A stretch of 64,000 bases of DNA from Eumeta japonica (taxonomy: Eukaryota > Arthropoda > Insecta > Lepidoptera > Psychidae): assembly GCA_005406025.1 (NCBI GenBank), contig BGZK01001446.1:1-64000 (forward strand). The letters run 5' to 3'. A program made the translations under genes and the position numbers. The notes under the pieces were generated by a model, which saw only the letters and a program-made list of their open reading frames with translations, was not told the DNA's origin and searched no databases. Below, in pieces: positions 1,296 through 49,057 of this stretch. Positions within the stretch are counted from its first letter, which is position 1, and each line of letters begins with the position of its first letter.

Positions 1296-2104
1296 ATGGA
1301 TAATTTGAATAAAAAGGAATATTAAACCATTTGACGGTGAAAATATAGTATTTGGAAAATGAGACTTCGCATTTTGTTGAGTGAACTTGATGTGATTGAT
1401 GTAATAGATAAGAGATTCCTACGGAACCAAATACTGAGTGTGCAAAAGGATAAAATCGCAAAGAGTACGATTGTGGAGTATTTATCGGATTCCTTTCTAG
1501 GATTCATTAAAAACGAATATAATTCCAAACAAATATTTGAAAACTTAGATGCAATCTACGAAAGAAAAAGTTTAGCGACTCAATTAGCTTTGAGGAAGAA
1601 ATTGTTGAGTTTAAGACTCAACAATTTCTTCCTGATAAAACTTTTTCACTACTTTGAGGATCTTTTGTCAGAATTATTGGCTGCGGGAGCAAAACTAGAA
1701 GAAACGGATAAAGTTTCTCATTTATTATTAACATTACCTAACTCTTACTATGGTGTTATCACAGCCTTTGAAACATTAGCCGAAGACAATTTGACATTGG
1801 CATTTGTGAAAACGAGATTATTAGACCAGGAAATAAAATTATTAAATGAAAGTCGAGATACAAGTCTAAAAGTATTACAAGTGGAAGTTTCTAATAATCG
1901 GCAAAATAATTGAAGAAGCCACGGAGATTGTATCAAAACTATGGAAATTTTCGAAGGCAAAAGTTCTTAGATCAAAAATTACAAAATAAAATGTCATTAT
2001 TGTGGAAGAAAAGGGCATATAAAATGACTGTTATTACTACAAAGGTAGAGAACAACAAGGAAAATATAATTCAAGAAAAGGATGATACAGACAGTACAAA
2101 TTAG
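1296..2104 (+). pseudogene. Copia gag (capsid and zinc knuckle), frameshifted
   Basis: A start codon at 1296 opens a frame that is broken after nine codons. A one-base loss near 1340 separates the KPFDGE-type N-terminus from the YSIWKMR-like block that follows. The main open piece runs 1359-1913 (184 codons) and shows the Copia gag core, with LLAAGAK-like and HLLLTLP motifs and a C-terminal RLLDQEIK block. The nucleocapsid knuckle (CX2CX4HX4C) is at 1992-2031. It is itself split by a frame change at 2025, between its His and last Cys. Codons 1593-1633 form a perfect inverted repeat inside gag (see findings). Homology to insect Copia gag is from recognition of motifs. Confidence 0.9.
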
Positions 2105-2718
2105 CGAACCTACACATTCTACAGACTTTTCAGGATTTGCATTCATGGCTGGAGGATTATCAGAAAATAATGAAATCTCAAATAAAATATCTTTTATATT
2201 AGATTCAGGTGCATCAGACCACATTATTAACAGGAGGATTTAACACATAACTTTACAGATTTGGACAAACCATTGATGATATCTATCGCAAAAACGGAGT
2301 TTCCATAACAGCTAAAAAGGGCACACTTAAGGTTAGAAGTGGTTTAAACGGAACGCTACAGGATGTTCTCTATTGTCCAGATGTACCATATAATTTACTT
2401 TCGGTAAGAAAATGCAACAAGCCGGATTCACATATTCGAACAGAATGGTAATGTACAGATAAAAAGATCATCGTGGTAAGTTCGTAATAAATGGAAATGG
2501 GTGCTTAAATAAATTGATAACTATTATTTTGAAATAGATACGCCAATGACAAATTCTGTGTCTGCATTGAGTAAGGTCACAAAATAATAGCGATTTATGG
2601 CATCAACGTTTGGGTCATATAAGTAAATCAAAATTTTACAATTAAAAGGTAACAATATGTTTAAAGACACCGAACGCTTAAATCAAATTAAACCAAAGAA
2701 GATTTATGCGAAGCTTGC
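2105..2718 (+). pseudogene. Copia protease and GAG-pre-integrase zinc domain
   Basis: The aspartic protease active-site motif DSGAS-DH is readable at 2202-2222, preceded by a stretch that continues the polyprotein. Downstream, the pre-integrase zinc finger has its two histidines at 2601 and 2616 (in WHQR..GH) and its two cysteines at 2707 and 2716 (CEAC), the usual HHCC arrangement of Copia elements. Several frame changes and stops between 2230 and 2590 prevent translation as one chain. Confidence 0.85.
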
Positions 2719-3625
2719 ATAAAGGAAAACAAGCGTGTCTACCATTTAATAAATTTAAAATAAAGAACATATTGAACGACCTTTATTCAATGTTCACACT
2801 GACGTGTGGTCCCATCACTCCTCCAACACTTGACGACAGAAACTACTTTGTTTTTATCGATGAATTTACTCACTACTGTGCAACGTATTTAATGATGCGC
2901 AAATCAGATGTTTTGCAGTATTCAAAGATTTCGTTGCTAAAAGTAATGCTCTTTAATTTAAAACTTGTAAACTTGTTTTGCGATAACGGAGGTGAATATT
3001 TGTCAAATGACATGAAAGAATACTGTGTGCAAAGAGGTATCAGTTATCACTTGACAGTTCCACAGACCCCTAGTTTAAATGGTGTCGCAGAACGAATGAT
3101 GTACTGTGACTGAAAAGGGCGCGCGCTATGCTGGTCGGTTCTAAATTAAAAAAGTTTTGGGGTGAAGCTGTATTGACTGCTACATTTTAATTAATATTTC
3201 TCCAACTAGAGCTTTTATATAAAACACCATTTGATGTGCATAATAAAAACCACAACTCAAATTTAAAAATTTTCGGTTCGTATATGCATAACAAAATATA
3301 AAATCCAAATTTGAGGATAAATCCTCAAAAGGATATTAGTTGGTTATGAACCAAACGGGTACAAAGTATGGGTGTGGAAACTCAAAAGTTTGTTAAAGTT
3401 AGAGATGTGGTTGTGGACGAGATGAATTTTTTGTCCAGCAGACCGACATTGAAGTCTGATAGGATTATCTATAAAAATTCTATAGAGATAACTCTAACGT
3501 GCACACTTCGTCGTCCAAGAATGTAAATCTGGTGATTTAAAATCAGATGTGCAAAACAAACAAATGACGCCTTTAGTCATACCTCATTAGGGCAACCGCC
3601 TAATAAATCTGTAACAGAAACAGAT
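2706..3625 (+). pseudogene. Copia integrase core, with decayed C-terminal part
   Basis: The DDE catalytic triad is recognisable: first Asp codon at 2801 (in HTDV, just before a frameshift), second Asp at 2982 (in CDNGGEY), and Glu at 3090 (in NGVAERM). The spacing of 35 residues between the last two is the D35E spacing of retroviral-type integrases. The longest open part is 2706-3113. A stop right after the Glu helix ends it, and the homologous frame resumes with a KARAM-like block near 3115. Region 3180-3625 (C-terminal integrase and linker) has multiple stops and no clear domain. Confidence 0.88.
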
Positions 3626-4740
3626 ATGCACGACAGGCCCTCCTCAATGCAAAACAATGAAACTTTCCCAAATTTAAGACGGAGTGATAGGATCAAAACA
3701 CGTCCCACTTATAATGAAAATGAAATTCACGAAGATTACTTATTATCTGCTCAGTCAATAGTTTGTCAAATGCCAACATCATATAATGAAATAGAATCAA
3801 GGGATGATAGATTATTATGGGAACAAGCTATAAAAGATGAAATTAATTCATTAATAGAAAATAAAACCTGGACCTTGATTCAAAAACCGAAAAATAAAAA
3901 CATCGTTGATTGTAAATGGGTTTTTACAATAAAAAACGATGAATATGGAAATCCACTTAAATATAAAGCACGGTTGGTAGCTCGGGGCTTTAGTCAAGCA
4001 TATGCTATAGATTATAATGAAACATTTGCACCTGTTGCGAGAATTTCCAGTTTTAGATTTTTATTGGCTTTTGCTAATCAATTCGATTTATTAATACATC
4101 ATATGGATGTGAAAAGTGCATTTTAAATGGAGACCTAAAAGAGGAAATATACATGAAAGTTCCGGAGGAATTTCATGCCAAAATAATCAAGTATGCAAAA
4201 ATAAAGCCATATATGGATTGAAACAATCTGCACGTTGTTGGTTTCAAACATTTGAAAGAACTTTGATTAACAGAGGTTTCCAAAATTCGCCAGTCGATAG
4301 GTGTCTTTATATACTCGACAATGGCGATGTTCTAAAGAATATTTATTTAATCTTATACGTCGACGATCTCGTAATTGCCACAGCCGATCTTAATGCAATG
4401 AATAATTTAAAAAAAATATTTAATGAAAACATTCCGCATGGTTGATTTAAAGGACATAAAATTATTCTTAGGAATTAAAATTGAAAGGCACGGCGATAAA
4501 CTAACCATGGACCAGAGCAGTTATATAAAACAGTTTTACAGAAATACAATATGTATGACTGTAAAAGCGTAGCCACACCACTTGAGACGAAGTTAAATTA
4601 CGACGCCTTAAATTCAAACGAAAGCATAAAGGCTCCTTGTAAGAATGTGATCGGGTGTTTAATGTACATAATGCTTTGTACACGTCCCGATTTGAGTGTA
4701 GCGGTAAACATTCTCAGTAGGTACAGTAACAAAACAATAG
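3626..4740 (+). pseudogene. Copia reverse transcriptase
   Basis: The open piece at 3626-4126 carries the RVT_2 N-terminal blocks WEQAIKDE, NKTWTL, DCKWVF, YKARLVARGF, NETFAPVAR and MDVKSAF. A one-base frameshift at about 4125 moves the continuation to 4116-4445. That piece carries the YGLKQSARCW block and the catalytic YVDD motif (4356-4367). A further frameshift after 4445 precedes the thumb region (4551-4760) with CTRPDLS. Catalytic residues are kept, so decay is by indels rather than loss of the active site. Confidence 0.92.
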
Positions 4741-10000: not shown

Positions 10001-10154
10001 TCATTAATTCTACAGATACACTTAATGGTAAATATAAATTAATGTTAAAGTAAGATAATTAGGATATTAGGGTGATAGGTATGTGTGTTACTGTTGTTTT
10101 GTGTTACTGTGTACATACTTAAACGTACCTAGATACCTACTTAAACGTACGTAG

Positions 10155-11850
10155 ACCACGACAGGCAGTATATAATCGTGCCTCAACGTGGGACCAAAGA
10201 CACCCTCTGTGATCTGGAGACATATCTAAGAGAGGAGGGGGAAAAGAAGATTTCCACTCTCCTTGTATCACTGGACATAAGAGGGCCTTCGATAATGATT
10301 GATGGTTTGATGGTAAGCCATTAAAATCAGCTTGCTAAAAAGAGATGCCCGAGAAACTTGTACCACCTAGTGGACTCGTATCTTAGAGATAGCCGGATAG
10401 TAGTGAACTACGAACTGCGTAAAGGAGACGATAAAGGGTTGCGTCTAAGGATCAATAGGCGGACCGGCCTTCTGGAATGTCATCCTTGATTCATTGCTCG
10501 ATGAACTATCTGATGAAAAAGTCCACTATCAAGCGTTTGCGGACGATGTGGCTGATCTATCGAATCTCTGCAGAAAAGAGCCAACAGTCCGTTGCGCATC
10601 ATCTTGCGGGGGGGGGGAGGGGGGGAGCGTAACAAGCTCAAATTTGCGCCTCATAAAACCAAAATCATCTTGTTAACGAGGAAGCAGAAGTACAACGTCC
10701 CCATCAAGCCATGAACGAGTTGAAGGTACTAGGCCTAATCATCGATAAAAGCCTAACCTTCAAGATGCATATGGCTGCCATATGCAGTAGAGCGGCAGAC
10801 ATCTACAAGTAACTGGTGTGAGTTGCGAAGGTCATATGGAAACTCAACCCCGAAATCATCAGGACCATATATGTCGTCATCATAGAGCATATCGTGCTTT
10901 GTGTTACATTTCGTGGTCCCCGATCATGGATTTTCTGATGAAAAGGAATCGGCTTAACACGCTACAAAGAGGATTCACGCAGAAAATCTGCAAATCGTAT
11001 CGTATGATATTTCTCAACGCTGTTCTAGTAGTGTCCAGCTTGCTTCCGTTGGACCTGAGAGTACATGAATTTGCCGCTCTATACAAACACAAAAAGAGAC
11101 TCTCAAATGACTACCTCGAGCTCGGAACGAGGATGAGTTACCTTGAGCAACATCATCCCTCTACACTGCAAAGAGTGACATATGAGCCTCTAGAAGACTC
11201 GGACTAGGAAATTATACGAAAGATTGCTGACTCACACGTATAAACCGATGGCAACAAAATAGAAGGCAAGGTGGGCGCTGCGTTAACTAAGTGAAAGAAT
11301 TGTGAGGAAGTCACTGAGAAACTTCACCTTTAGTCTAGACCCTTCCTGTACGGTCTTCCAATCGGATTGTAGGTGCTGCATAAAGATATATTACTAATTG
11401 AGTTCAGAACAGAGCCAAAAGTCAGCGCGTTAAGCGATTCAAAGTTTTCTCTAGAATTGCTGATGGACAACAAAGCAGAACATCCACTAGCCAAGTCCAT
11501 CAGAGAGATCATAAGGGAGACGAGAGTGAAGAGCCGAGAGGTTTAATTATTCTGGCTGAAGGCTAGGACAGCGGTAGGACAGATATCAATCGTCAAGTAC
11601 CGAGAAAATCACAAGACGGTTCCTCTCGAACGTTGAAGAAGCATTTCGCGTCGTGAGGAGCAATAGATTGACCCACACAGAGGTGCAATTCCTGATGGGT
11701 TATGGTGGGATAGCGTCGTACCTGCACAGGTTTCGTCTCAAAGACACCCATGGTTGCGAGTGCGATGCAGAAGTTGAAGAAACAGTGTGGCCTACAGTGC
11801 GACAAGTGGCTTGGTGGCCCTTGATGAGGAACAAACGTAGCATACGAAAA
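10155..11850 (+). pseudogene. R1-clade non-LTR retrotransposon, RT and RNase H remnant
   Basis: Starts inside the RT with PQRGTKDTLCDLE, then VSLDIRG and a decayed palm. The catalytic FADDV is intact at 10536-10550. Then come the thumb (NRLNTLQRGF, VLVVSSLLPLDLRVHE at about 10940-11070), an RNase H start with YTDGNKIEGKVGAALT (about 11240-11290), and a C-terminal zinc region with YLHRFRLKD and C-x-C residues (about 11725-11765). The 5' half (ORF1, endonuclease) and the 3' end are missing. Several frameshifts are present. A 10-G plus 7-G tract interrupts the palm at 10608-10625. R1-type assignment rests on similarity to lepidopteran R1-like polyproteins. It ends where the viral helicase remnant begins. 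Confidence 0.85.
10608..10625 (+). repeat. Poly-G tract inside R1 RT
   Basis: Ten G, one A, seven G. It is the longest G run noticed in the window and lies just after the FADD active site. Confidence 0.9.
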
Positions 11851-11869
11851 GACCCCTTTAGTATGACCC

Positions 11870-12606
11870 GATAGTGGTCACTGCCCGACGCACGATGGTT
11901 GCGCTAGAGCAAAGAATTCTGGAAATGGCAAAATCTGTCACCAGACATAAAGATTTCGGTGACACCCAAGAAGATTGGACAGTGCCTGATATAACATGGG
12001 TCAATGGAGTCTCTGACTGCAATAAAACAACATGGACCGTGAAGCACTTTAAATTGGTGAAGGACGTTATCATCACCACAACTCTAGAAGTAGGAAGAAA
12101 TCTTAAAAAAAGCTTGCTAGTCCACTGAGCGCCGACACATATAGGTAAATGGCTTTGGCCGAAGAGCTGCGATCATCTGAGTGTAGACGAGGCCCTCATG
12201 AGCTATTTGGGAGCCATCGTAATGTCTACATGGCTTGCAGGTGCAAAAGAGATCCTTCTGATAGGTGATGTCAACCAATTTCATTCATCGACAGGTTGAA
12301 CCCCTTCAAGATGAAGTACCATTCGACCAAATATGGTGGCGAAGGTCACGAAGCAAATTCTATGCATTTACAGAAACCCACTGGATGTAGCATATGCCCT
12401 CAACGAGGTATATAGTGGCATATACTCACCCAAGACTAAGATCCGATCATTGCAGCTGAAAAGATACAGTGATACGAAATTCCGGAAGATCTCCCTAAAA
12501 CTCTTTATCTAACATATACACAGGTAGAGAAAGAATCCCTCATCACCCAGGGATTCGAAAAGGGAGAAGGGTCCCTGGTTCCATTCATGAAGCGCAGAAT
12601 TTAAAT
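11870..12606 (+). pseudogene. Endogenous viral element: SF1 RNA helicase of an alphavirus-like (virga/nege-type) virus
   Basis: Fossil of a replicase helicase domain; it has no expected activity. All signature motifs appear in order on one strand. A degenerate Walker A is at 12006-12032 (GVSDCNKTT, two glycines of the P-loop replaced). Walker B DEAL is at 12186-12197. The motif III LIGDVNQ is at about 12258-12278. A YRNPLDVAYAL block is near 12370-12405, followed by RSLQLKRY, then TYTQVEKESLITQGF and GEGS near 12515-12570. IHEAQ is readable in a shifted frame at about 12582-12598. At least three frame changes and in-frame stops (12126, 12297 and near 12508) break it. About 245 codons are covered. 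No methyltransferase or polymerase domain is seen on either side. It is flanked by an R1 remnant upstream (same strand) and a CR1-like element downstream (opposite strand). The exact virus family is uncertain; virga/nege-like is the best fit by motif style. Confidence 0.85.
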
Positions 12607-14850
12607 TAGAAATATCTTTATTTTGTAGGTAATGAAATTACACTTGAAATACGTCATTAATACATTCTCTTCGGCATTACCACCCATTCCAAATACTGAT
12701 TCACCTGGAAAAGAATTAGCAAAATCCTAAAGGCTTGCTCTTTTGCACTCATCAATACAAAGTACTTAGTAATTAATAATTTAGTCGACAGTTAAAAATA
12801 ATATGAAGTAACCTGATAGACGAGTAGTTCAATCTCAGGGGCTATTTTCATTAAGATATTCCGACACGGAATAATAGCTTTTGCCGTATAACTTTCTTTT
12901 AACGAAATGTTTAAACTCAGCAAATGGCAAATTTTGAATTACAGCTGGAATTTTATTATAAAAGAGCACACACAGCTTCAATGTTTTATTAACTTTACTT
13001 AGACGGGTCTTACAAGCGGCAATATCGTTCTTATGTCTAGTGCTAATGTTATGGTTGTCGCTCCTTTTTTGGAACGATTCTATGTTTTTTGACATATATC
13101 AGGTTTTGTATATATATTGTTATGCTAAAGTTAATTTTCTTAAATTTTTCTCTGAAAGATGTATGTAATTAGTTTCAAACCATAAACAGCGCGCATAGTT
13201 TACTTCTGTAGCATAAAAATCGTATTAATATCGGCTGTATGACTTCATGACAAAATTCCATACGTCATAAGACTATGAAAAAACCTGAAATAAACTAGTC
13301 CTGTGGTGCTTCCATCTGTAAGTCGCCGAATTATTTTTATTGCATATGCTGCAGATTGAAGCCTTTTCGCTAATCTCGTAATATGAGTACTCCAAGGTAA
13401 CTTAGAATCTAAAGTGAGACTAAGAAATAAGGTCGTGCCCACAGTATCCAGTACCAAGTCCTTAACCATTATAATTGTGTCCATCAATTCAGAATTAGAT
13501 AAGAAAAACTTTGCAAGTTTTGTTGTTTTTTCATTCAGCAGAAGATTATTAATGTTAAACTACTCAATGATTTTAGAGATAGTACTGTTTACTTTATCTA
13601 GAGCTGGTTGATGCCTATCAATCTTAAAAAGTAAGGAGGTATCAACAGCAAACAATACAATCCCATGATCATTCTTAACAATATGTGGTAGATCATTTAT
13701 GTATATTAGAAATATAAATGGTCCAAGAACTGAACCCTGTGGCACGCCCACATTGATTGCAGATCCTGACAAGCTCTGACCATTTATGCCAACCCTTTGA
13801 ATTGCATCACTTAAATGAAAGTCTAAAAGTCTAAGGGATCGAGCCGTAATGCCATAATTATGTAATTTCCTGATCATTGTGTCATGACGAATGCAGTCAG
13901 ACGCTTTGGATAAATCACAGAAAAAACCAATCGCGTCCTGTGAATCCTCCCAGGCATCAAAAATCTACTGAATGATCTCGACACCGGCTTTGGTTGTTGA
14001 GCGACCCTTTGTAAATTTAAATTGTTTAACGTTCATCAAATTATTGTTATAAAGTACTGAAATAGTTGATCAAAAATAAGCTTTTTAAATTTTTTTCTGA
14101 GCGTTGGTAGTATTGTTATCGGTTTAAAGTTTTGAGGGTCAGATATACTACCGGATTTAAATAATGGAATTACTTTACTGTACTTCTTTAGATATGGAAA
14201 CACACCAAAATCAACGCAAGCAATAAAAATCACTACTAGACATAGAGCAATGCAATCTATTATTGGATGAAATATTTTTACGGAAAGGTTATCAAGATCG
14301 GCAGTTTTATTAATTTTTTTACATTTAAATGCTTTAAGAACGTCATTATAATGGACATAAGTAAAAAGAAACGCCACAAACATCGACATAACGTTTCAAC
14401 AAAGATTCGGCGAGAGTGGGCGATGACTTCATAGATTGTATAGTTGAACCTGGAATACTACCAAAAAACTTTTCAAAAGCAAAAGCAACTTCCATGTCTT
14501 TGTTAATAAATTTAGTCCTTAATTTTTAATTGAAATTCCAAATGCCGGGATGTTCGTTTTCCAGTTTTACGATTTATTATGTTCCAAGCAGTCTTAACCA
14601 TGTTTGTGTTCTTTTTTATTTAATTACAGATAAACATTGATCTTGCGATTACATCCACACGCCTAAAGATCTTGGAATAATTTCTTAAGTGTTGGACAAA
14701 TATATCCGAATTATTATATGCTCTTTCCTCATAAAGGACGTACAATTTATGCCTACTAGTATAAATGCCTACTGTTACCCAATCACTAAATGATAAAGTA
14801 TTATTAACATTAAAATTTTTTGATAAAAAAAACATTTTTGCATTCAGACG
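12607..14850 (-). pseudogene. CR1/Jockey-like non-LTR retrotransposon, RT to 3' end
   Basis: Read from high to low coordinates: pre-RT region (KLYVLYEERAYNNSD, about 14740), RT start (KKINKTADLDNLSV, IPLFKSGS..DPQNFKPI, about 14300-14110), VPQGSVLGPF at about 13755-13725, the catalytic box at 13641-13652, LVYFRFFHSLMTYGIL at about 13290-13250, and a C-terminal block YYSVSEYLNE near 12850. The catalytic FADD has become FAVD, so the RT would be dead even without the frameshifts. The part below 12835 is the 3' UTR, with an AATAAA-like signal near 12612-12625. The endonuclease half is absent. I recognise this family from lepidopteran genomes, where it is usually labelled mobile element jockey. 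CR1 versus Jockey clade is not settled here. Confidence 0.85.
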
Positions 14851-15271
14851 TGGTTACAATCAACAGTGAACCATATAATTCACAAATCAGATACTTTTTT
14901 TTAATACGTTAAATTTAAACTGCTCAAGACGACCAATTTTCACAGGCACACAATTCTGATTTTACGTTTTATATTTTTAGGGGCCTGACATCCAAAAGAA
15001 TCGTCATCGTGTGGACCACCGCGAAACAGAAGTTGTACAACAGTGTGCCACACGCCGTGGTGGCGATTATGTGCCATACTGTCACTTGTGTATATTATAC
15101 GGACGACGGTGTAGACACAATCGGCAGATTCGTAAATAGGGCTTTGGCCACAAGTGACAAAAAAAAATATGACAATAATGCTAAGATGGCTCTCCGTAAA
15201 GTTTATACATTACGTATTGTAATATAACGTACTTAGGAACAACAATAGTCAAAATGGGCTAGTCTGAGACT
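14851..15271. other. Spacer between CR1-like element and satellite
   Basis: A 72-codon open frame at 15009-15227 (+) has no recognisable similarity and no supporting context. Otherwise nothing seen. Confidence 0.4.
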
Positions 15272-16078
15272 GGTGCACGATCTAACGAATGGGTTTGCCC
15301 AAGATCGGTGCGCCATCTAACGAATAGGTTCCCCAGGATCAGTACGCTATCTAACGAATAGGTTACCCGGGATCGGTGCGCGATCTAACGAATGGGTTCC
15401 CCGGGATCGGTGCGCTATCTAACGAATGGATTAACCCGGGAGTGGTGCGCGACTTAACGAATGGGTTCGCCCAAGATCGGTGCGCGATCTAACGAATGGG
15501 TTCCCCGAGATCGGTGCGCTACCTAACGAATGGATTAACCCGGGAGTGGTGCGCGACTTAACGAATGGGTTTGCCCAAGATCGGTGCGCGATCTAACGAA
15601 TGGGTTCCCCGGGATCGGTGCGCTATCTAACGAATGGATTAACCCGGAGTGGTGCGCGACTTAACGAATGGTTCGCCCAAGATCGGTGCGCGATCTAACG
15701 AATGGGTTCCCCGAGATCGGTGCGCTACCTAACGAATGGATTAACCCGGGAGTGGTGCGCGACTTAACGAATGGTTTGCCCAAGATCGGTGCGCGATCTA
15801 ACGAATGGGTTCCCGGGATCGGTGCGCTATCTAACGAATGGATTAATCCGGGAGTGGTGCGCGACTTGACGAATGGGTTGGCCCAAGATTGGTGCGCGAT
15901 CTAACGAATAGGTTCCCCGGGATCGGTGCGCTATCTAACGAATAGTTTCCCCGGGATCGGTACGCTATCTAGCGAATGGGTTAACCCGGGAGTGGTGCGC
16001 GATCTAACGAATAGGTTCCCCGGAACCGGTGCGCTATCTAACCAATGGGTTAACCCGGGACTGTTGCGTGATCTAGCC
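15272..16078 (+). repeat. Minisatellite: 34-35 bp units in a 104-bp higher-order repeat
   Basis: About 23.5 head-to-tail units, each built on GGTGCG..AT/ACTTAACGAATGG followed by a variable tail. Three tail types alternate: A (GGTTCCCCGGGATC), B (GATTAACCCGGGAGT) and C (GGTTCGCCCAAGATC). From 15375 to about 15924 the order A-B-C repeats about five times, with 34+35+35 = 104 bp per cycle. The flanking units (15272-15374 and 15925-16078) break the pattern and are more diverged. The array is far more GC-rich than its surroundings. Because the cycle is nearly a multiple of three bases, it gives open frames such as 15668-15904 with a repeated NEW/LTNG peptide, which I regard as incidental. Confidence 0.95.
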
Positions 16079-17200: not shown

Positions 17201-20200
17201 CTTATCGGTAACTCTTTCTACTTGTATATAACCCAATTCTAATTGTATATAACCATAACCATTTAAGGACCTCATAGGTAAAGTATCATACAAGAGCATA
17301 ACCTAGGATTGGTTGAGAAGACCTAGTAATGCTCATGAATATTTGTCTCATAAACACCTGGACATTTCACGAAACTTTTTAAATACAACTAATTATTTAG
17401 TTATTATTTGTCATCTACAAACATAAAGGTAAATTTTGTATGTAAAGTTAAGTCAGCTATTGTCCTTCAATATTTTATGGCCGACTACCATGCAAGGATA
17501 GTTCATTCTCATTTCTGTTTACGAGGAACACTATTTTTTTGATAGCTGTAAATTTGTTTTATATATCTATATTAATATTCATTAATATACAGAGCTGTTA
17601 GATTTAAAAGTTTCTTTGTATTTACTTCAAAGAGATATTTAAGGTTCTAACCGGTATATCGCCTAAATTCTCTTCTTCCGCGGCTGAGAGATGGTATAAA
17701 TTACACTATGCTGCGCAGATCATCAGATTTTTAGAGGGTCGTGTGTAAGATCACTGTTATAGATAATAACAAACTGTCGCCTTGCTACAATTTTTACACC
17801 AAACAATGAAATGCCTGCTCGGATCGCCAGAGGGCGGGCATTAATTCATGATCACACAACTGTTGTTTGATTACTGCGGATATCTCTCAAGTAGAAAACT
17901 TTATCGATTCATTTATTTCGTCGAACTAATCTTCGAGCCGTAGCAGCGTAAAGGAGTAAAATACGAGAGGGCCCGTGGCGTTTTCGCGTCAGAGGAGAGT
18001 CGTTCCCCTTAAGCGTCGCCTTTATAGCACACTTAGTGACTCTTTTCATATTGTTATTTCCTTTCCTCGGAGCTGTTTGCGAGCGAAGGAAAAAAAAAAG
18101 AGCGAACCGTTTGCGATTTCGCCTCGAATTAACGGTTCCGTTTTTCATGCTCTTCTCGGGGAATCGTCTCGTGAAAGACATAGCGTTTGTTATGAGAGTC
18201 ATTTGCGATGCGATGAGTGGTGATGTATTGGGATAGGCGACTTCTTAGCGGTTTGCGCTCTTGCACTTAATTTTAAAATTAATGGACAATATATTTCTGA
18301 ATGTATGTCCGACTGATCGATCTGTTTTGGCTTTACTTTAATTACGTGTCTTAGACATCGACAGAAAAAAAAATAAACGACAAAAAATACCTTTTATATG
18401 TGTATATAAAAGGAATAAAGAAATACATATAAAACTTAATCGTGAAAACATATATTTGATCTGTTCGTAATAAAGAAAATATTAATGGTAAGTGGTATAA
18501 TATAATAGATCAACGAGTACGATGGTGAAAGATTTGACAAAGAATCAATAAGAAAAATATTTATAAACCAAATTGGTTTTGTATTCAATAAGGGCCTAAT
18601 TATAGGTACGTGTAATAACCGAACCTGAATGGAACGCCTAATAAAGTTCCACGATGCAAAAGGTATTTATAGGCGTATCGAGTGAATGAGTTGAGGTCAG
18701 CACCTAATGCACTTTTGAAAGGAGCATAAGCATATGTATGTCAATATAGATTAGGATCACAAGATTTGTTTTTAGTTTCGAGACACAAACGAGGTTGTGA
18801 GCCACCACGGGGTAGGTGGTCACAGATGCTCATGGACATTCAGAATTCTACAGTCCCAATTTATTGCAGGCCTTTTTTCCTTTAGCGACAAATCCATACA
18901 TAGACATCAAATAACATCCAAAAACGAAGATAAATTTGTGATTGCACAAAGTTTAAACCAAACGGGTAGACATAACATCAACCCTTAAATACCTAATTTT
19001 AATGATAAATGATATTTAATTAAAAATAAATTAGGCTAGGATGTTTATTTCATGGTCGGGATTTATAGTATTAAGATTCATCACAATATGGGCCGGTGAC
19101 TAAACTGTGGATTCTAGAAACTGAAAATTGTAAATATCTCCAAAACTCGTAAATTCTCTAAAATAAATATTTTCTATTATGGTGATACTTTCTGGTTTTT
19201 AATACAAAGTAAGATGGGGAGAGTAGGGAATATATTTGAAGGTATAAGTTACTTAAGAACGTTTGACGAATTTTCAGAAATTTATTGAACGATATTCTAC
19301 ACAATGAGGCAAGCGAAACAAATTTTTTTCAACCTTCAATCTTATGTATATGGGAATCTATACCTATATTTTCTCGTATTCGTAAAAAAATCCAGGTGAT
19401 TACTATACAATATATACCTAGCTGTATAATTTTATCAGAATCAATAAAAGGATAGCGAAGTTATAAAGCTGTGACAGACGGACGTACATAATGAAACTAA
19501 AAGGTTTTCGTTTTTCGTTTTTGGCTATGGGATCCTAAAACATTTATAAAATTCAAATATATATTTTTTAATTTAATTAATTATAGAAGCTTTAAAGCGA
19601 TTTATAATCAAGCTTCAATTAGGATAATTTGTTTTTTTTTCATGCGAATAGACATACTATAGGTGAATTACGGGTCTGATCAAGTTCTTGGACAATTTAA
19701 AGTCTAGCCCAAAATTAAATTTTAAATTCCCTAACAACGATACAAATTCCTGGAAACTTAAATGGAAAAATTAATTTTGCTGAAGTAAGCCTTTCCCAGT
19801 TTCGGTATAGTAAGGCGTCCCACTGCAAAAGTTACTTATTTCAAAGTAGAGGACGTAAGTAGTTCACGTAGTTTCAATAAAGGCGCTTATGAAAGTTTCG
19901 CGGTTGCCCGCGCGCCGACTGGTCAATCTCTTGGCAATTCACTTTAAGAAGCTAAGTAAAACGGAACGTTGTAGGGAGAGAAGAATGTAAGGCGCCGCAG
20001 GAACAAGGCGTCATTTTGAAATCGTCACATTCGGCCGTGATAGGTTTGTTTCTAGCGCCACCGCATGCGGCTATAGTTGGTTTTACAAAAACTAAAAAAA
20101 ATACGTTTGGTCAAATGCGTGTTCAAATATGAACAAAGTAGGGCACGCAGCTGTCGAGTAAATGCAATTTCTAGCTTAACTTAATTCGATTTAGATTAAA

Positions 20201-29060: not shown

Positions 29061-32000
29061 GGTTTCGGGTGCTAAGAATTTGGCCCTTTTTTAATATGAC
29101 ACCCTCATATGGTCTTATTGAAATAGATGGAATCCACCATATTCACTCATAAAAATCGACCAACTATGTATTGTTTATGTCAAAGAGGTAGTTCCACTGT
29201 ATTTTGAAAATTAACAGTAATGTAATTAAACAAGTTCTCATGGATAGAATTTATATGGCTTCGATTTATTCACAAAATAACATACGAGTATACTGCATCA
29301 AATATTGCCTACATTAAAATGTAGGTAATATTTGATTATTTTTTTTGTATTGGCAAAAATGAAGTCTTCCGGTTGAGTATTTGTATTGCCACTTGGCCAC
29401 TTTTTTTGTTAACAAAAACAGCCTCCGAATTTGTTCCGGACGAAGTATAAGGCGTCCTGTAAAATTTTGTTGAGCATCAGCCTTGTTTGACATCAAAGAC
29501 TTACAAGGTTGTGTTTCTTAGAACGCTAAAACGAAATTTTTTATGAGAATAGCTGGCGTCGAAGTGATGTTGACGACAATACACTTTAAAAAGGTATTTC
29601 ATGGTTAATGTCATGTTCAATTAGGTATGTAGCAACAAAATATCAAATTTAAATATATCGTCCTAAAAATTTTCAGTTACGTTAATTAATGTTACAACTC
29701 TATCACAAATCTTACAAATAAAACATAATTTCATCAATGTGACATTTAATAAAATGAATTGTAGTGTGTATTTAATCCAATGTTTTTAAATGATCCTTAA
29801 CTTGATCAAGAAATGCTCTTACAGCGCATTCGTAGAAGAAATAAGTTGAACAGAAAATTTCTTTAATGGTCTAGGAGATTACTCGGCTGTTTAATATCCG
29901 GCGTCGATTCGTGTCGCATCTCTCTGGCTCTGCGCGAACCGAAGGCAGTTGTATTATGTCGATTAGTGCTTTTTAAGTACTATATTTACGCAAACTAGAG
30001 TTTGTTTTGAATACAAAAAAAGGTATTTCGTTTGAAAATACATTACATAAACTCATAAAGACATGGATTTTTTTTTTTCAAAGCTAAAATAATTTACAAT
30101 AAGTGTATAAGTCTGTATAAAGGGTCTTATCTTTTACTAAATATCGGATGCTTCATATTAAACGGTAAAATTGAAAAGAACAGTACCACGAAGCGTGTTA
30201 ATCTGTAATTAGATATCAATCTCTTGTTCGGGCGCCACTCGTCAACTCGCCCCCATTATTGCACGTGCGTGGGGGCAGGGGGGAGATGGTTCGTCGCATT
30301 AACGAGGGACAGAGGACAGATACCCAATGGATGAGAAGCGACGGCCGAGCCGGCTCGTAAATAAAAAATTAAAAATCGCTGCTCTCCCGTGAACCGTTGC
30401 CCATCTCTTCCGACATATTGTTCACGTTGCTATTGTCCATAAAATTAGAATTAATGTGAAATTTTTAATCTGAAAGTGTTATTGTAAACGAAACGACATC
30501 ATTGTAAAATTGGCATTACAAATATAATAGATTTATTTTATCGTTGTAAATATTAAAATATGTTGACCATTTTTATTTTTTATTATCAGATAGTTTTAAA
30601 TAGAATGATTATGTTCATACGTTTCCATGACATCAAGTTATGTAAGATATCAAATAACATGTAAATTAATTGAACTAGACAATATTTTTAGTTAGTTCTT
30701 TTAATTATTCTGAGCACGGTCGCGAACGTCGCGTAGAATCGATCACAGCGCGAGAGCAACGTGACCTGATATAAAGTTCTTCTATATTTTTATCGATCTG
30801 GATGCAAATACATTTTTATTCGACTAATACTAATTGTAAATGTATTCAGAATAAAAAAAAAATATAACCGATTGCAATTTACGTCTGCAATGCTGTGACT
30901 ATCCTTTAATACAAAGTTCAGTATCATAAAATATTTTGACGTTAATTTCAAGGTAAAACAGATATTTAAAGACAATTTATGATTTAAATGGTTCCTTAAA
31001 ATCAAGAAGGGCCAAGGTAAAAGTAATATTCTCTTCTGTGTACATTTATAAGTTATTGCCTAATAAAAATAGCAACAAGTAAATTTTATAGTTTTTTTCT
31101 GACCGTTCATATGTCACTGGCACTTCGTTCAAATACTGGCTAGTAGTGTTGATATTTAGTATATTTATAGAGATTTGTAATAGTTTAATGAAGGTACATA
31201 TAAACAAGATGATCACTATACGATTTCTTTTAGAACTTCTCAAAATTTAGTTTTATTTTTTGAATAAATTAGTTTATGGAGTTTATTAATATTATTTCTT
31301 AGGTTATATATCTATCTATTCTATATCCAGCTTTTGAAGTATTTTTATAGAAAGTAAACCCAGAAAATATGAACAAAGAATGACATTACCATCAAAATCA
31401 TCACCTCTATCTAAAATCTAACTATTTCAATACTATTATACAATAATAAAAACTATTTCAATAATTCAATTCGACCAGGACGTAGTTGTTCTCGCGTTCA
31501 CTTTCAACAATTTGTATATTAAAAGACAGAAATCAACAGCAAAAATAAAATTATTGTATTCCATGTCTGATAGGTATGACAATAAGTTTTCCTCGTTTTT
31601 GTGTGACGTTGATGCACATAACAGGCGTGGTTTTTAAATAGGTTTTAGTTTTAGTTTTAGGTGCAAGAAATTACTTACTTTCAAGCAATATACATATTAA
31701 ACCATAAGGCCAAATGATGGCCAAATGAAAGAAAAAAATCTTCTTACTACATCCCGTAAAATAAACGAGTCTGTTTTTGTGAGAATCGAAATTGATTTGC
31801 AACAGCAACTTCAATATTGGTAATGTGCGCGTTCCCGCGGTGCAGACATGTCGGCGTCGGTGGTGACGCTCCGGTATAACTTTCATCTATCAACAAGCAG
31901 GACTAATATAGACGTCTCCTCGTGATCTCATTTTGCTTTCGCTATCCGGTCGCTTGTTTATTTTCCCTTTCAATAAATCTCTAATGTAGCTGTATTCGAT

Positions 32001-38830: not shown

Positions 38831-41800
38831 ACTTACAATCCTAGAACATCATACTATGAAAATTTTTACGACTTAAATCTATAAGAATGAAGACACGCAA
38901 TTTTTAAAATGACGCTACAATGTAAAAACAATTGACAATTAGATGAAACAAACTGTATTCTACGGCCAAAGAGTCCCATTTACAAATGCAATTACTTTTA
39001 AATATTGTTTATATAAGTGGCCAGTTCCAGAAAACTATAGTGCGCCCAATGTAAATTTTATAGTTAATTGTAAATACAATATGATGAAAAATTATCTTGA
39101 GTTTGTATATAAATGAAAAAACATTTTCTCCGACTTTACACTTTTAAACATAGTACGGCCTTAGTGTAATAAAAAAATTATGAAAAAATTGTGAAAAGAC
39201 AATTCCATCAATTACTTGACCATTTAATGCCAATTGTTTTTTCTTCTAATTTCGTATTTAGCAGTATTTTTTTGTACATATGTATACCGCTCTACGAAGA
39301 TGCGCGCTTCCTTTTCATTTCAGAATGTAGGAGTAAGAATTGGAGCTGTCCATTGCGCTGGGTCGGGAGCGGCTAACAACCGTCATCAGTGCGGTGACAC
39401 CCTCCGAGGGTGTTCGCTTTATCCTCTTTTCGAGGAGCAAGTGGTTAATTTTTATATAGCATTTTTGATGGGGCCAAGGAGCTTGCAGGCCGCCAGACAG
39501 TAAACGATCATCGACTCTCATGGACACTCGTCACTATAGAGATGGAGAGGAGAGTGAGCTATCAAAACTCTCACTCTCTGGACGAAACGAAACATCGTAA
39601 ACAATTACTTCACGTCTGTATTTCATGAGAGTGTAGTAGAATACACCATGGTCCTACTACTAATTTGATTATATTTAAAAATTATAAATCTAATAATTAT
39701 CATTTGGTCTCATGGCTGACTTTTTATAAGCTGTTTGATCGCTCGCCATGAAAATACGCATGCATACGCACTTTTTCGCGGAGAAGGTTTTTGTGCTATC
39801 CCATTCTTTTTAATTTGACACGAATTGGCGCTGCAGCGTACTCTTTAACGGTAGGTTTGTAATATCAATAGTAACGTGATTAGCAAGTGGCTTTGATTAT
39901 AACAAATAGAAACCGATGTTTTTAATCGTTAAATAATTTCAACAATCAAGAATAGCGAATTTAAAATGTAACCGCAGATTTTTGATATTACACAAAATTT
40001 TTGACTTCGATACCTACTTTTTTTCAATTTACGAACATTTGCAATTAAAAGTGTTTTGGTAACGGTCGGATAATTTTTTTTTGGTTTTTGGCAGGTTTTT
40101 GTTATATTCTCCCGACAAAATAATATGTTTTTTTCTTGGGAGTAGGAAGACACTTCGCAACTTCGGCACATGACCGCCCCTATCCATCCGTCAGTAGTCA
40201 TCTGGCTATAGACAATTAATGCTACCCGTGTGAAGCCAGGGCGGGTCGTTAGTGTTTCTGTATACGGATTATAACGCAGCTTGTTATGACGATAACGCCC
40301 GATATTTTCAAGGGATTTGAATGAAATTCAGCCCTTTGGTTCTTCAACGATTGCCTTGAAAAAGTTCAAAGGTAAACAAAATTGGCCATTTAGTTTAGAA
40401 GTGGTGACCATTTAAAATTTTCAAAATAATTTAGATAATTTACAAAAATAATTTCGAAACTAAAATAATTTTGATAGGTTTAGCCTAATTCCGTATATTA
40501 TAGGAAGTAATAACAGGTAGAAATCTACTTCCATTTAGGATGCTAAATGGCATATTTATAAGATTAACTTTATTTAGCACTATTGTCAAACACGAATAAA
40601 AACGTATATCATGATAAATTTAAAGCTATCATGCGGTATTGTAGTAAAAATTTAATTTGTGTTGTGTAACTTTGTAATCAAGCTAAATTTATTTTAATTA
40701 AAATATATTTGGGATATGCACTCGGTCATAACGTTTTTAAACTAGCAGCACTTTTAAAATAAATTTAATGGCTTTTATAATATTATATCCTTATATGAAA
40801 CTACAATATCGTATTGTGAATTTATAGTGATATGTTCTAATATAATAACATGTATTTTAATATTAAATTACTATAAAATCCTGTAATACCAAACAAACAG
40901 CCACTTTACGTTTGTTTTTTCCCATCATAATAATTTTGAAATAAAAAAATACCATTATTCACAGTAAATCATCAGAGTCGGAAAATTAATAAACTTTTCC
41001 GGGAAACGACGGCGCGGGAGTGCCCGAGAGCTGGGTCTGTCAGTCGGGCTCGCGCGCGCGCACGTGCCCGTTTGTCTTAAGAGTCTCCGGTTTAAATACT
41101 TTTAAATGTTTTATTACATGAATTAATATTTCAAAGACTTTACATGTTTTATTAAAGACTTTATCGTTCTTTATTACGTTTTCTCATAAATATCGTTATA
41201 AACGTGAAATATCAGCATGTGGAATCTTATTCGGTCCTATATTGTTCTTGCATTTAAAAAATATATAAATCATGTTCATACATATCTATCATATGAACGT
41301 AGTTAATTTGATATCGGATCGAAAAAATAATTTATTACAACATTTTTCAACCTTAATTTAAGTGACAAATGCTATGGCGCTATACATAAATCACATAGAT
41401 ATTGCAATAACATGATACCATCAATAATCATGTACGTAACCAGATTTATATCAGACACATTTAATAGATTTATTCCCATGTACATTCACGGATCTTCTTC
41501 ACCAATTAACCTCTCCGCTGTCCTCCGACCCCGGCCCCGTTCCACTTCGCAAATCAATAGGTCGATTCGACGAGAGGGTTATTGTAAATTTCTCCTTTCC
41601 GCAATATTCTCAACTTTCATTATTTCGCCGCCGTCGGCCGAGTCGGGACGTTCGCGGCGCCTTATCTCTCCTTTTTCCATCATTCCCGGAGACTTGCGAG
41701 GGAGTCTTTTGTGTTATGGTTAGCGAAGTTTTGATAGGAATTTAATTTAATACGTCGTCTGTTGTCGGCGCCTTTTGATACACACCGTTCTTTGTGGCGG

Positions 41801-47297: not shown

Positions 47298-49057
47298 TGG
47301 TAACTCTGTATATAATGTCAGTATCGAATAGCAAACAAAAAAAATAAAGTTGTTCATTTACATATTTCGTAATTTAGATATGTCATCTTAATTTTGTGAT
47401 TGCCAACAGATGGCGGTAGTAATATAATATCGTTCTCATTAAAAGTGAAAAAAAATCATGCATTAAACTACAAATATAATTACTATCTGCTCACTTATAG
47501 TTTAAAAGTTATTCAGCTATTTTGTTAGAAAAGATTATAGAAATAAGCTCATCAATATTGACTTTGTATTTAGTAACAGATGGCGACAGTAGCAATGTAA
47601 TAAACAAAACACCACACGTCGATGATGTTAGTTCTATAATTGACGACAAATGACGTTAGTAATACAATAATATTTTAGTTGATACAGTATTACACATTGT
47701 TGTTTTGTGTTTTTTAAATATTTGTTCATGAAATGAGATATTAAATATAAATAACAAATCTAGATATTAATTTAAATCACTATGTTAAATTCCACATGTT
47801 CAGGTGCCATGGTTTTTTTCATAAAATGTATCATAAGCATATACGGTTTGCTGAATAGTTATTAATTATTTTTAATAATTATTATTACAATAAAAATCAT
47901 TTTCTGGAACACGCAAGCGTAGTCGCGAACTACCATGTTTGAATCATTGTTAATTGATGCAATCCTCCCATATATCTATTACAAAAACATACATCATTTA
48001 CAAATGTTGTCAAAAAGGATATTACGTATAGTTACGTGTATATTCCCTTGATTGGCTATTAAATGAGTGGGTAGTGCGGTTTATAATAAATGTGATGCCG
48101 TGATTGGTTTTTAAAAAGTAAATAATGTTGTGCTGCCCCTAATTCTAGATACAAACTGAAGCATATATTCCAATTTAAGATCTCTGTTTGGGATATATGG
48201 GGGTCGCTTTCGTGTAACTATGCACTTATTTACGTGTTTATTGACATACAGAAATAGCATAAACCATAATCCCTCCTTTCCAATATCGCCGCAGTCGGAT
48301 GAGATGTGACAATATGCATTCGTCACAAATCAGGGCGCCGTCGTGCAGGGACGTAGCGAGTGTGACACAAACGAGCGGGGCCGTCCATCACGCCCGCAAT
48401 AAACGCCTACAGCGACTCAAACGGTTTGAGGCGTCACACGTGCTGCTATGAGTTACGGCTGTATAGGGACACTTAAGAGAGAAGCAACTATGGAAAAAAA
48501 ATCTTCATAACAATACACTTATTTTTATAAAGGAAATATATCTAAAACCAGTTAATAGCCATTACTTAGACTGAATCCTTGTTACAAACTTAGTTGCTAT
48601 TAGTAGAGAGATTTTACTCAGTCAACTCAACAATGAATCACACTGGTCGACTAGACAATCGAAGTTACTTTGAAGTTTTTTGCCAGGTCCGAAAGTGATT
48701 GATGTGTTATTGTGTCTAATTTAATGGTCATTTGAGTGAATAAAAAAGTGAATGAAATTGAGCAGATAAAGCCTTTAGACTATGGATGTACTAAAAATAG
48801 CAAAAATAACATCGACCTGTTTAATGTAAATCATGACACAATACAATCTCAGACAGTCTGTGTTCTAAGTACCCCATGTTATAAACGCTTGCCTGCAACA
48901 TGTATTAACATGCAGCATGCAATCTATCGCTGAACCTCGAATCTGTTCTTCCACTATGAATGCCTATTCAAATAATTAAATATGATTCGATAGAATTGAC
49001 AGATATCGAACATCTAAGCAAGTGTTAATTATTTATTTATCTTAGTCCGCTAATCGT
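47298..49057. other. Gene-free region
   Basis: Three spaced blocks around 47404, 47574 and 47642 share CAGATGGCG.(C/T)AGTA..AAT-like sequence and may be remnants of one repeat. A GC-rich island is at about 48330-48450. No coding signal recognised. Confidence 0.4.

Follow-up and report, generated by a model that had tools for sequence, protein, structure and literature searches.

Helicase-bearing TRAS LINEs have been described from Lepidoptera by Lazareva et al. 2015 (PMC4686597), Morozov et al. 2017 (PMC5563155), and Geisler 2018 (PMC5803895). A single capture of the helicase from a virga-like virus was argued in earlier work (PMC5563155), which also names a zf-RVT domain for the region of LINE ORF2 behind RNase H. 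The roles proposed for the captured helicase include unwinding in reverse transcription, silencing suppression, RNA quality control, and antiviral use (PMC5563155, PMC6338049). For a LINE helicase of Plutella, one plant movement-complementation assay was positive, a result called preliminary by its authors (PMC4686597).

In this work, we analysed positions 1 to 64,000 of contig BGZK01001446.1 (assembly GCA_005406025.1) of Eumeta japonica, a stretch of 64,000 nucleotides referred to below as the window. It almost certainly contains a dead non-LTR retrotransposon, provisionally classed as TRAS-like (R1 group), whose ORF2 carries a C-terminal SF1 helicase derived from a virga-like virus. The first-pass annotation had regarded the helicase as a free-standing fossil virus, which proved wrong, as the helicase is the C-terminus of a LINE ORF2 with RT and RNase H directly upstream. 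Its proposal that a retroelement had made the copy stands. The features of the copy are collected in Table 1.

Table 1. Parts of the helicase-bearing LINE copy in the window
Feature	Positions	Strand	Basis or remark
Decayed LINE ORF2, RT (from mid-RT) and RNase H	10158..11576	+	several frames, probably 5'-truncated
ORF2 region behind RNase H, zinc-finger-like	11578..11790	+	piece 11578-11871
Deletion junction, spacer missing	11787..11790	+	comparison with copy L033
Decayed linker before the helicase, and SF1 helicase as far as motif V (IHEAQ)	11789..12597	+	tblastn E 9e-43
Nested insertion, decayed LINE	12598..14980	-	RT on minus strand
Helicase C-terminal remainder (motif VI side) and start of ORF2 tail	14981..15199	+	tblastn, DNA comparison

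The ordered motifs of an alphavirus-like SF1 helicase, which the first-pass annotation had read on the plus strand, are all readable where it placed them. A decayed Walker A occupies 12000-12035 and is followed on the same strand by DEAL at 12186, LIGDVNQ at 12258, and YRNPLDVAYAL at about 12369; the frame changes for EKES..TQGF..GEGS (piece 12473-12601), and a third frame holds IHEAQ near 12577-12591. The stops and frame changes of the remnant were confirmed as real, in agreement with the earlier view of a dead copy, and the window copy encodes nothing functional. The extent first given for the helicase, 11870..12606, includes the motifs but is too short at both ends. The homology begins about 11789, not at 11870, and continues past 12606 in a remainder located 2.4 kb downstream; in tblastn with the reference ORF, the match breaks off at 12580 after residue 681 and resumes at 14961 with residue 682.

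When the stop-free helicase pieces were searched apart, the first four gave their scores with lepidopteran-type LINE proteins. The LINE and viral scores were 97.8 and 35.0 bits for piece 11862-12125, 53.9 and 32.7 for 12129-12296, 79.7 and 41.6 for 12315-12509, 46.2 and 35.8 for 12473-12601, and 82.0 and 43.1 for the downstream piece 14919-15224. Shuffled sequences reached at best 25.8-26.9 bits for the four pieces in 11862-12601 (200 residue shuffles each, same protein set) and at most 28.1 bits for the fifth. The helicase match is therefore not due to chance, because the pieces score 46-98 bits and the shuffles 25.8-28.1. Curated models detect the window helicase weakly. Nine window pieces were submitted to Pfam, where piece 12129-12296 matched AAA_19 (E 0.0026) and Viral_helicase1 (E 0.024), both below the cut-off, and the other helicase pieces gave no helicase match. 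NCBIfam yielded no helicase for the window pieces, with weak or chance matches at most, and a PDB search with piece 12129-12296 found no helicase. In the same kind of search, an intact relative did find tobamovirus helicase structures, namely 3wrx and 3vkw (7e-23).

Within the element, a non-LTR RT is present upstream of the helicase. With the E. japonica LINE copy L009 as a tblastn query, window positions 10163-11576 were matched at E 8e-66, and six pieces of this part are collinear on residues 539-1049 of the proteins P0037 and P0038; RVT_1 of Pfam reached E 0.0019 on piece 10449-10673, below the cut-off. The zinc-finger-like region that follows scores 95.5 bits to the protein P0054, corresponds to residues 1105-1175 of P0038, and is matched by other loci at 67-85% on the DNA level. 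A 22-bp unit occurs twice at 10112-10155, where the truncated LINE has its 5' edge. A Copia-type LTR element is located elsewhere in the window at 1341-4123, where Retrotran_gag_2 matches 1341-1910 (E 6e-22) and RVT_2 matches 3536-4123 (E 2e-28).

A long spacer between the LINE domains and the helicase is absent in the window copy and measures 1.17 kb in the related copy L033. Window positions 11570-11790 match 24-244 of L033, and 11787-12581 match 1414-2249. Because these segments, 1.17 kb apart in L033, touch in the window with a four-base overlap, the window copy has lost the spacer; residues 1176-1655 of P0038 have no window match. Further downstream, the nested LINE contains RVT_1 at 13560-13961 on the minus strand (Pfam, E 6e-13), and inspection of its edges by eye revealed no clear target-site duplication. 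Matches to this nested LINE also occur in the flanks of copies L023, L032, L046, and L047. Of 29 related loci, 24 match the helicase remainder behind it at 70-82% DNA identity, and in these the two helicase parts lie at most 130 bp apart, representing the undisturbed state; no match to the second part was found in the other five (L026, L027, L033, L037, L050). Directly behind the element, 15272-16075 is a minisatellite of 34 bp with about 23 copies and a higher-order period of 103 bp. It was considered as part of the 3' end of the element and dropped, as L022 and L028 carry no tandem array and the 29 loci gave no match.

That these parts belong to one element is evident from their collinearity with P0037 and P0038, each of which is an intact ORF2 protein of about 2000 aa with endonuclease, RT, RNase H, spacer, and viral helicase; Pfam finds Exo_endo_phos_2, RVT_1, RNase_H, and Viral_helicase1 together in each of P0037, P0038, and P0041. 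Twelve of the 13 stop-free pieces between 10145 and 15224 fall in order on P0037 (residues 539-1987) and the same twelve on P0038 (residues 572-1986), all with E below 0.01 and with only the spacer unmatched. Piece 12269-12412 is the sole one without an in-order match on these proteins. By this collinearity, the virus-like SF1 helicase is the C-terminal domain of ORF2. In copy L009 of E. japonica itself, RT, RNase H, and Viral_helicase1 (E 2.9e-32) follow one another along one strand in separate open frames, and the window matches it in order in tblastn; E. japonica proteins with 99% and 88% identity to the L009 query were also found.

The alternative closest to the first-pass annotation is that a fragment of a virga/nege-like replicase was reverse-transcribed and inserted alone, by chance beside a LINE. 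The virga-like helicase motifs and the position of LINE helicases adjoining virga-like replicases in the tree described below are compatible with such an event, and virga/nege-like endogenization has been reported in insects (Kondo et al. 2017). We nevertheless consider it very improbable, since all five pieces score higher with LINE than with viral proteins, the homology to LINE copies extends, with its order kept, across both linker and LINE part, the collinearity with a single ORF2 contradicts it, and the genome holds at least 39 relatives. An endogenous viral element would have a viral replicase as its closest relative and no transposon coding sequence attached; here, the closest relatives are LINE helicases and a LINE ORF2 is attached. 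A translated search had been expected to return RNA-virus replicases as the best matches, with host or transposon helicases named as the outcome speaking against a viral fossil, and transposon-encoded helicases came out best, in part that very outcome. The copy is read as a helicase-bearing LINE. What looks like an isolated viral helicase in an insect genome may belong to a transposon, so screens for endogenous viruses need flank checks.

The designation virga/nege-like fares better in terms of ancestry. A tree was built from 99 helicases, 39 of them in no labelled group and several viral rows on long branches, with a midpoint root used for drawing only. In this tree, a branch with support 100/99 has all 47 labelled LINE helicases on the same side, and the group nearest to them (support 98/70) consists of five unlabelled proteins and two that carry viral replicase domains, P0078 and P0082, the latter from Bemisia tabaci virga-like virus 1. 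These two replicases, the nearest viral helicases in the tree to those of LINEs, show 36-40% identity to the LINE helicase of P0009 and, unlike LINE proteins, carry RdRp (P0078 also FtsJ) without RT. The rows of the telomeric copy L009 and the interspersed copy L036 are not grouped together, the position of L036 being weakly placed. Judged from these sequence comparisons, virga-like holds as remote ancestry, the nearest relatives of the window helicase being LINE helicases, and the tree most likely fits a single old capture from a virga-like RNA virus in the ancestor of these LINEs.

The searched genome comprises 702 Mb in 5067 contigs and contains at least 98 Viral_helicase1 matches (profile search; best 150 of 159 candidates scored). 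With the window helicase as a DNA query, 43 rows were obtained, corresponding to the window and at least 39 other copies after split rows were merged (best 40 of 164 candidates scored), with 70-81% identity to the window in rows over 300 bases. Flanks were compared for 29 of the 39. Coverage across these copies declines by degrees in the 5' direction, and their 3' parts are shared, which is the truncation pattern of LINEs. Within 1.5 kb upstream, LINE ORF2 is recognisable in 7 of the 29, ORF2 or the LINE-specific spacer in 22, and neither in 7; among six copies probed at 1.5-3.5 kb upstream (L022-L026, L028), none showed a LINE part. The LINE part of the window, used in its turn, was found at no fewer than 39 other loci (best 40 of 64 candidates scored). 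Eight of the 39 sit 0.2-1.8 kb upstream, on the same strand, of a helicase from the DNA copy search, and one more lies upstream of a helicase from the profile search. From the remaining 30, ten high-ranking loci reaching the end of the LINE part were picked by hand and 2 kb downstream of each was read: five have helicase sequence there (two of these by 48-62 bases only), one has zinc-finger/spacer sequence only, and four show nothing recognisable within that distance. Read in aggregate, these mixed counts fit truncation, decay, or insertion of LINE copies.

The copies with neither LINE nor spacer in the flank, together with several predicted moth proteins that have the helicase and no annotated RT domain, could point to a pseudogene of a host gene domesticated from such a LINE. 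This origin is barely credible for the window copy, which has LINE ORF2 attached, and the copy number, the 5' truncation, and the scatter over contigs fit transposition. A Jockey-type LINE with the helicase in ORF1, a type known from Hemiptera and Orthoptera (PMC5563155), deserves as little credence, being contradicted by the order RT, RNase H, helicase, which marks a C-terminal ORF2 domain, and by relatives of the lepidopteran type.

Two separate lineages of helicase-bearing LINEs are present in this genome, an old one scattered over it and a young one in telomeric repeats. In the old interspersed lineage, whose members are mostly decayed, copy L036 (C454:911-1643) has an open helicase frame of about 300 codons. 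The young lineage is best seen on contig C2601 (48,291 bases), where elements stand head to tail at a spacing of 8.8-9.8 kb, with poly(A)-(CCTAA)n arrays at 622-666, 10401-10445, 20044-20088, 29684-29728, 39436-39495, and 48274-48288. This contig carries copies L009-L013 and L067, and placement in telomeric repeats was also found for L014, L015, L016, L018, and L020. Of the first 12 young-lineage stretches examined, 10 contain arrays of at least three (CCTAA)n units, some of three units only; they lie on 5 of the 7 contigs concerned (C2601, C997, C1705, C2099, C1403; not C1432 or C2771). None was found at the 30 interspersed loci, that is, the window copy and 29 others.

According to an opinion paper of 2019 (PMC6338049), which refers to Kondo 2017 and Geisler 2018, TRAS elements with a helicase cannot be found close to (TTAGG)n repeats. 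The young copies between poly(A)-(CCTAA)n repeats contradict this statement and may be new; the repeat context is observed directly and the position at chromosome ends is putative. The terms telomer, TTAGG, and TRAS were not found in the text of Geisler 2018 covered by a term search (PMC5803895), and the main texts of PMC4686597 and PMC5563155 have telomer nowhere but in the title of a cited reference and lack TTAGG altogether. Among the titles and abstract openings of the open-access papers surveyed, no report of telomeric helicase-bearing copies was found. Chances are about even that the young lineage is specific for telomeric repeats and builds head-to-tail arrays in (CCTAA)n, in which case its helicase may serve telomere-targeted reverse transcription. 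This placement makes the role of the captured helicase for the LINE more testable.

The window copy differs from the 29 other copies by K2P 0.23-0.30, with an end branch of 0.13. The mutation rate of moths is near 3e-9 per site per generation, and the age of the copy would then be some 40 million generations, as an order of magnitude only, based on this background rate. In the young lineage, the helicase is open over 323 residues in four distinct copies. The dN/dS values, computed only for pairs with L009, L018, or L036 rows, are 0.25-0.69 for young-lineage pairs whose dS reaches 0.02 or more; nearly identical copies of this lineage (dS 0.005 or less) give 0.29-0.59 or undefined values (dS 0), with too few changes to count. 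Because of the open frames and the ratios of 0.25-0.69, some constraint on the young-lineage helicase is likely, as far as substitution patterns can indicate. Eight old-copy pairs with L036 give 0.25-0.93, part of the change having arisen after death, and ratios between the two lineages were discarded as unusable, synonymous sites being saturated. No unbroken ORF2 was found among the copies examined; L009 and L016 have RT and helicase in different open frames.

Taken together, an ancestral lepidopteran LINE would have acquired its helicase, most likely in a single event, from a virga-like RNA virus. Ordinary target-primed reverse transcription probably brought the window copy to its site, and the way its relatives are truncated suggests that it was 5'-truncated. 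An internal deletion removed the spacer before the helicase, a second LINE split the copy, and the remains decayed; these events are listed without implied order. The architecture is observed and the function inferred: in working elements, the helicase would most likely assist the retrotransposition machinery as an accessory domain, either unwinding RNA or RNA/DNA duplexes in reverse transcription or blocking small-RNA silencing.

With Bombyx mori TRAS1 and TRAS3, the elements described here share the LINE ORF2 type, and the young E. japonica lineage, on 5 of 7 contigs, resembles them in its position in (CCTAA)n with a poly(A) junction. Bombyx TRAS3 has no helicase (PMC4686597), and the window copy, unlike TRAS1 and TRAS3, is not located in a telomeric repeat. 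The published SF1H TRAS LINEs likewise have a C-terminal virus-like SF1 helicase in ORF2 behind endonuclease, RT, and a spacer (>300 aa in theirs), a lepidopteran host, and virga-like viruses as the nearest viral relatives. The window copy's relatives also show an RNase H domain, and the window copy itself, unlike the published elements, is a dead one without the spacer, interrupted by another LINE. The earlier remark that the locus may be undescribed applies at most to this copy, the phenomenon being in print (PMC4686597, PMC5563155, PMC5803895); Psychidae was not found in the main text of PMC4686597 or PMC5563155. Helicase-bearing LINEs of moths and butterflies are thus already known, and what is new is this copy in the family Psychidae, which adds a bagworm to the moths that carry them.
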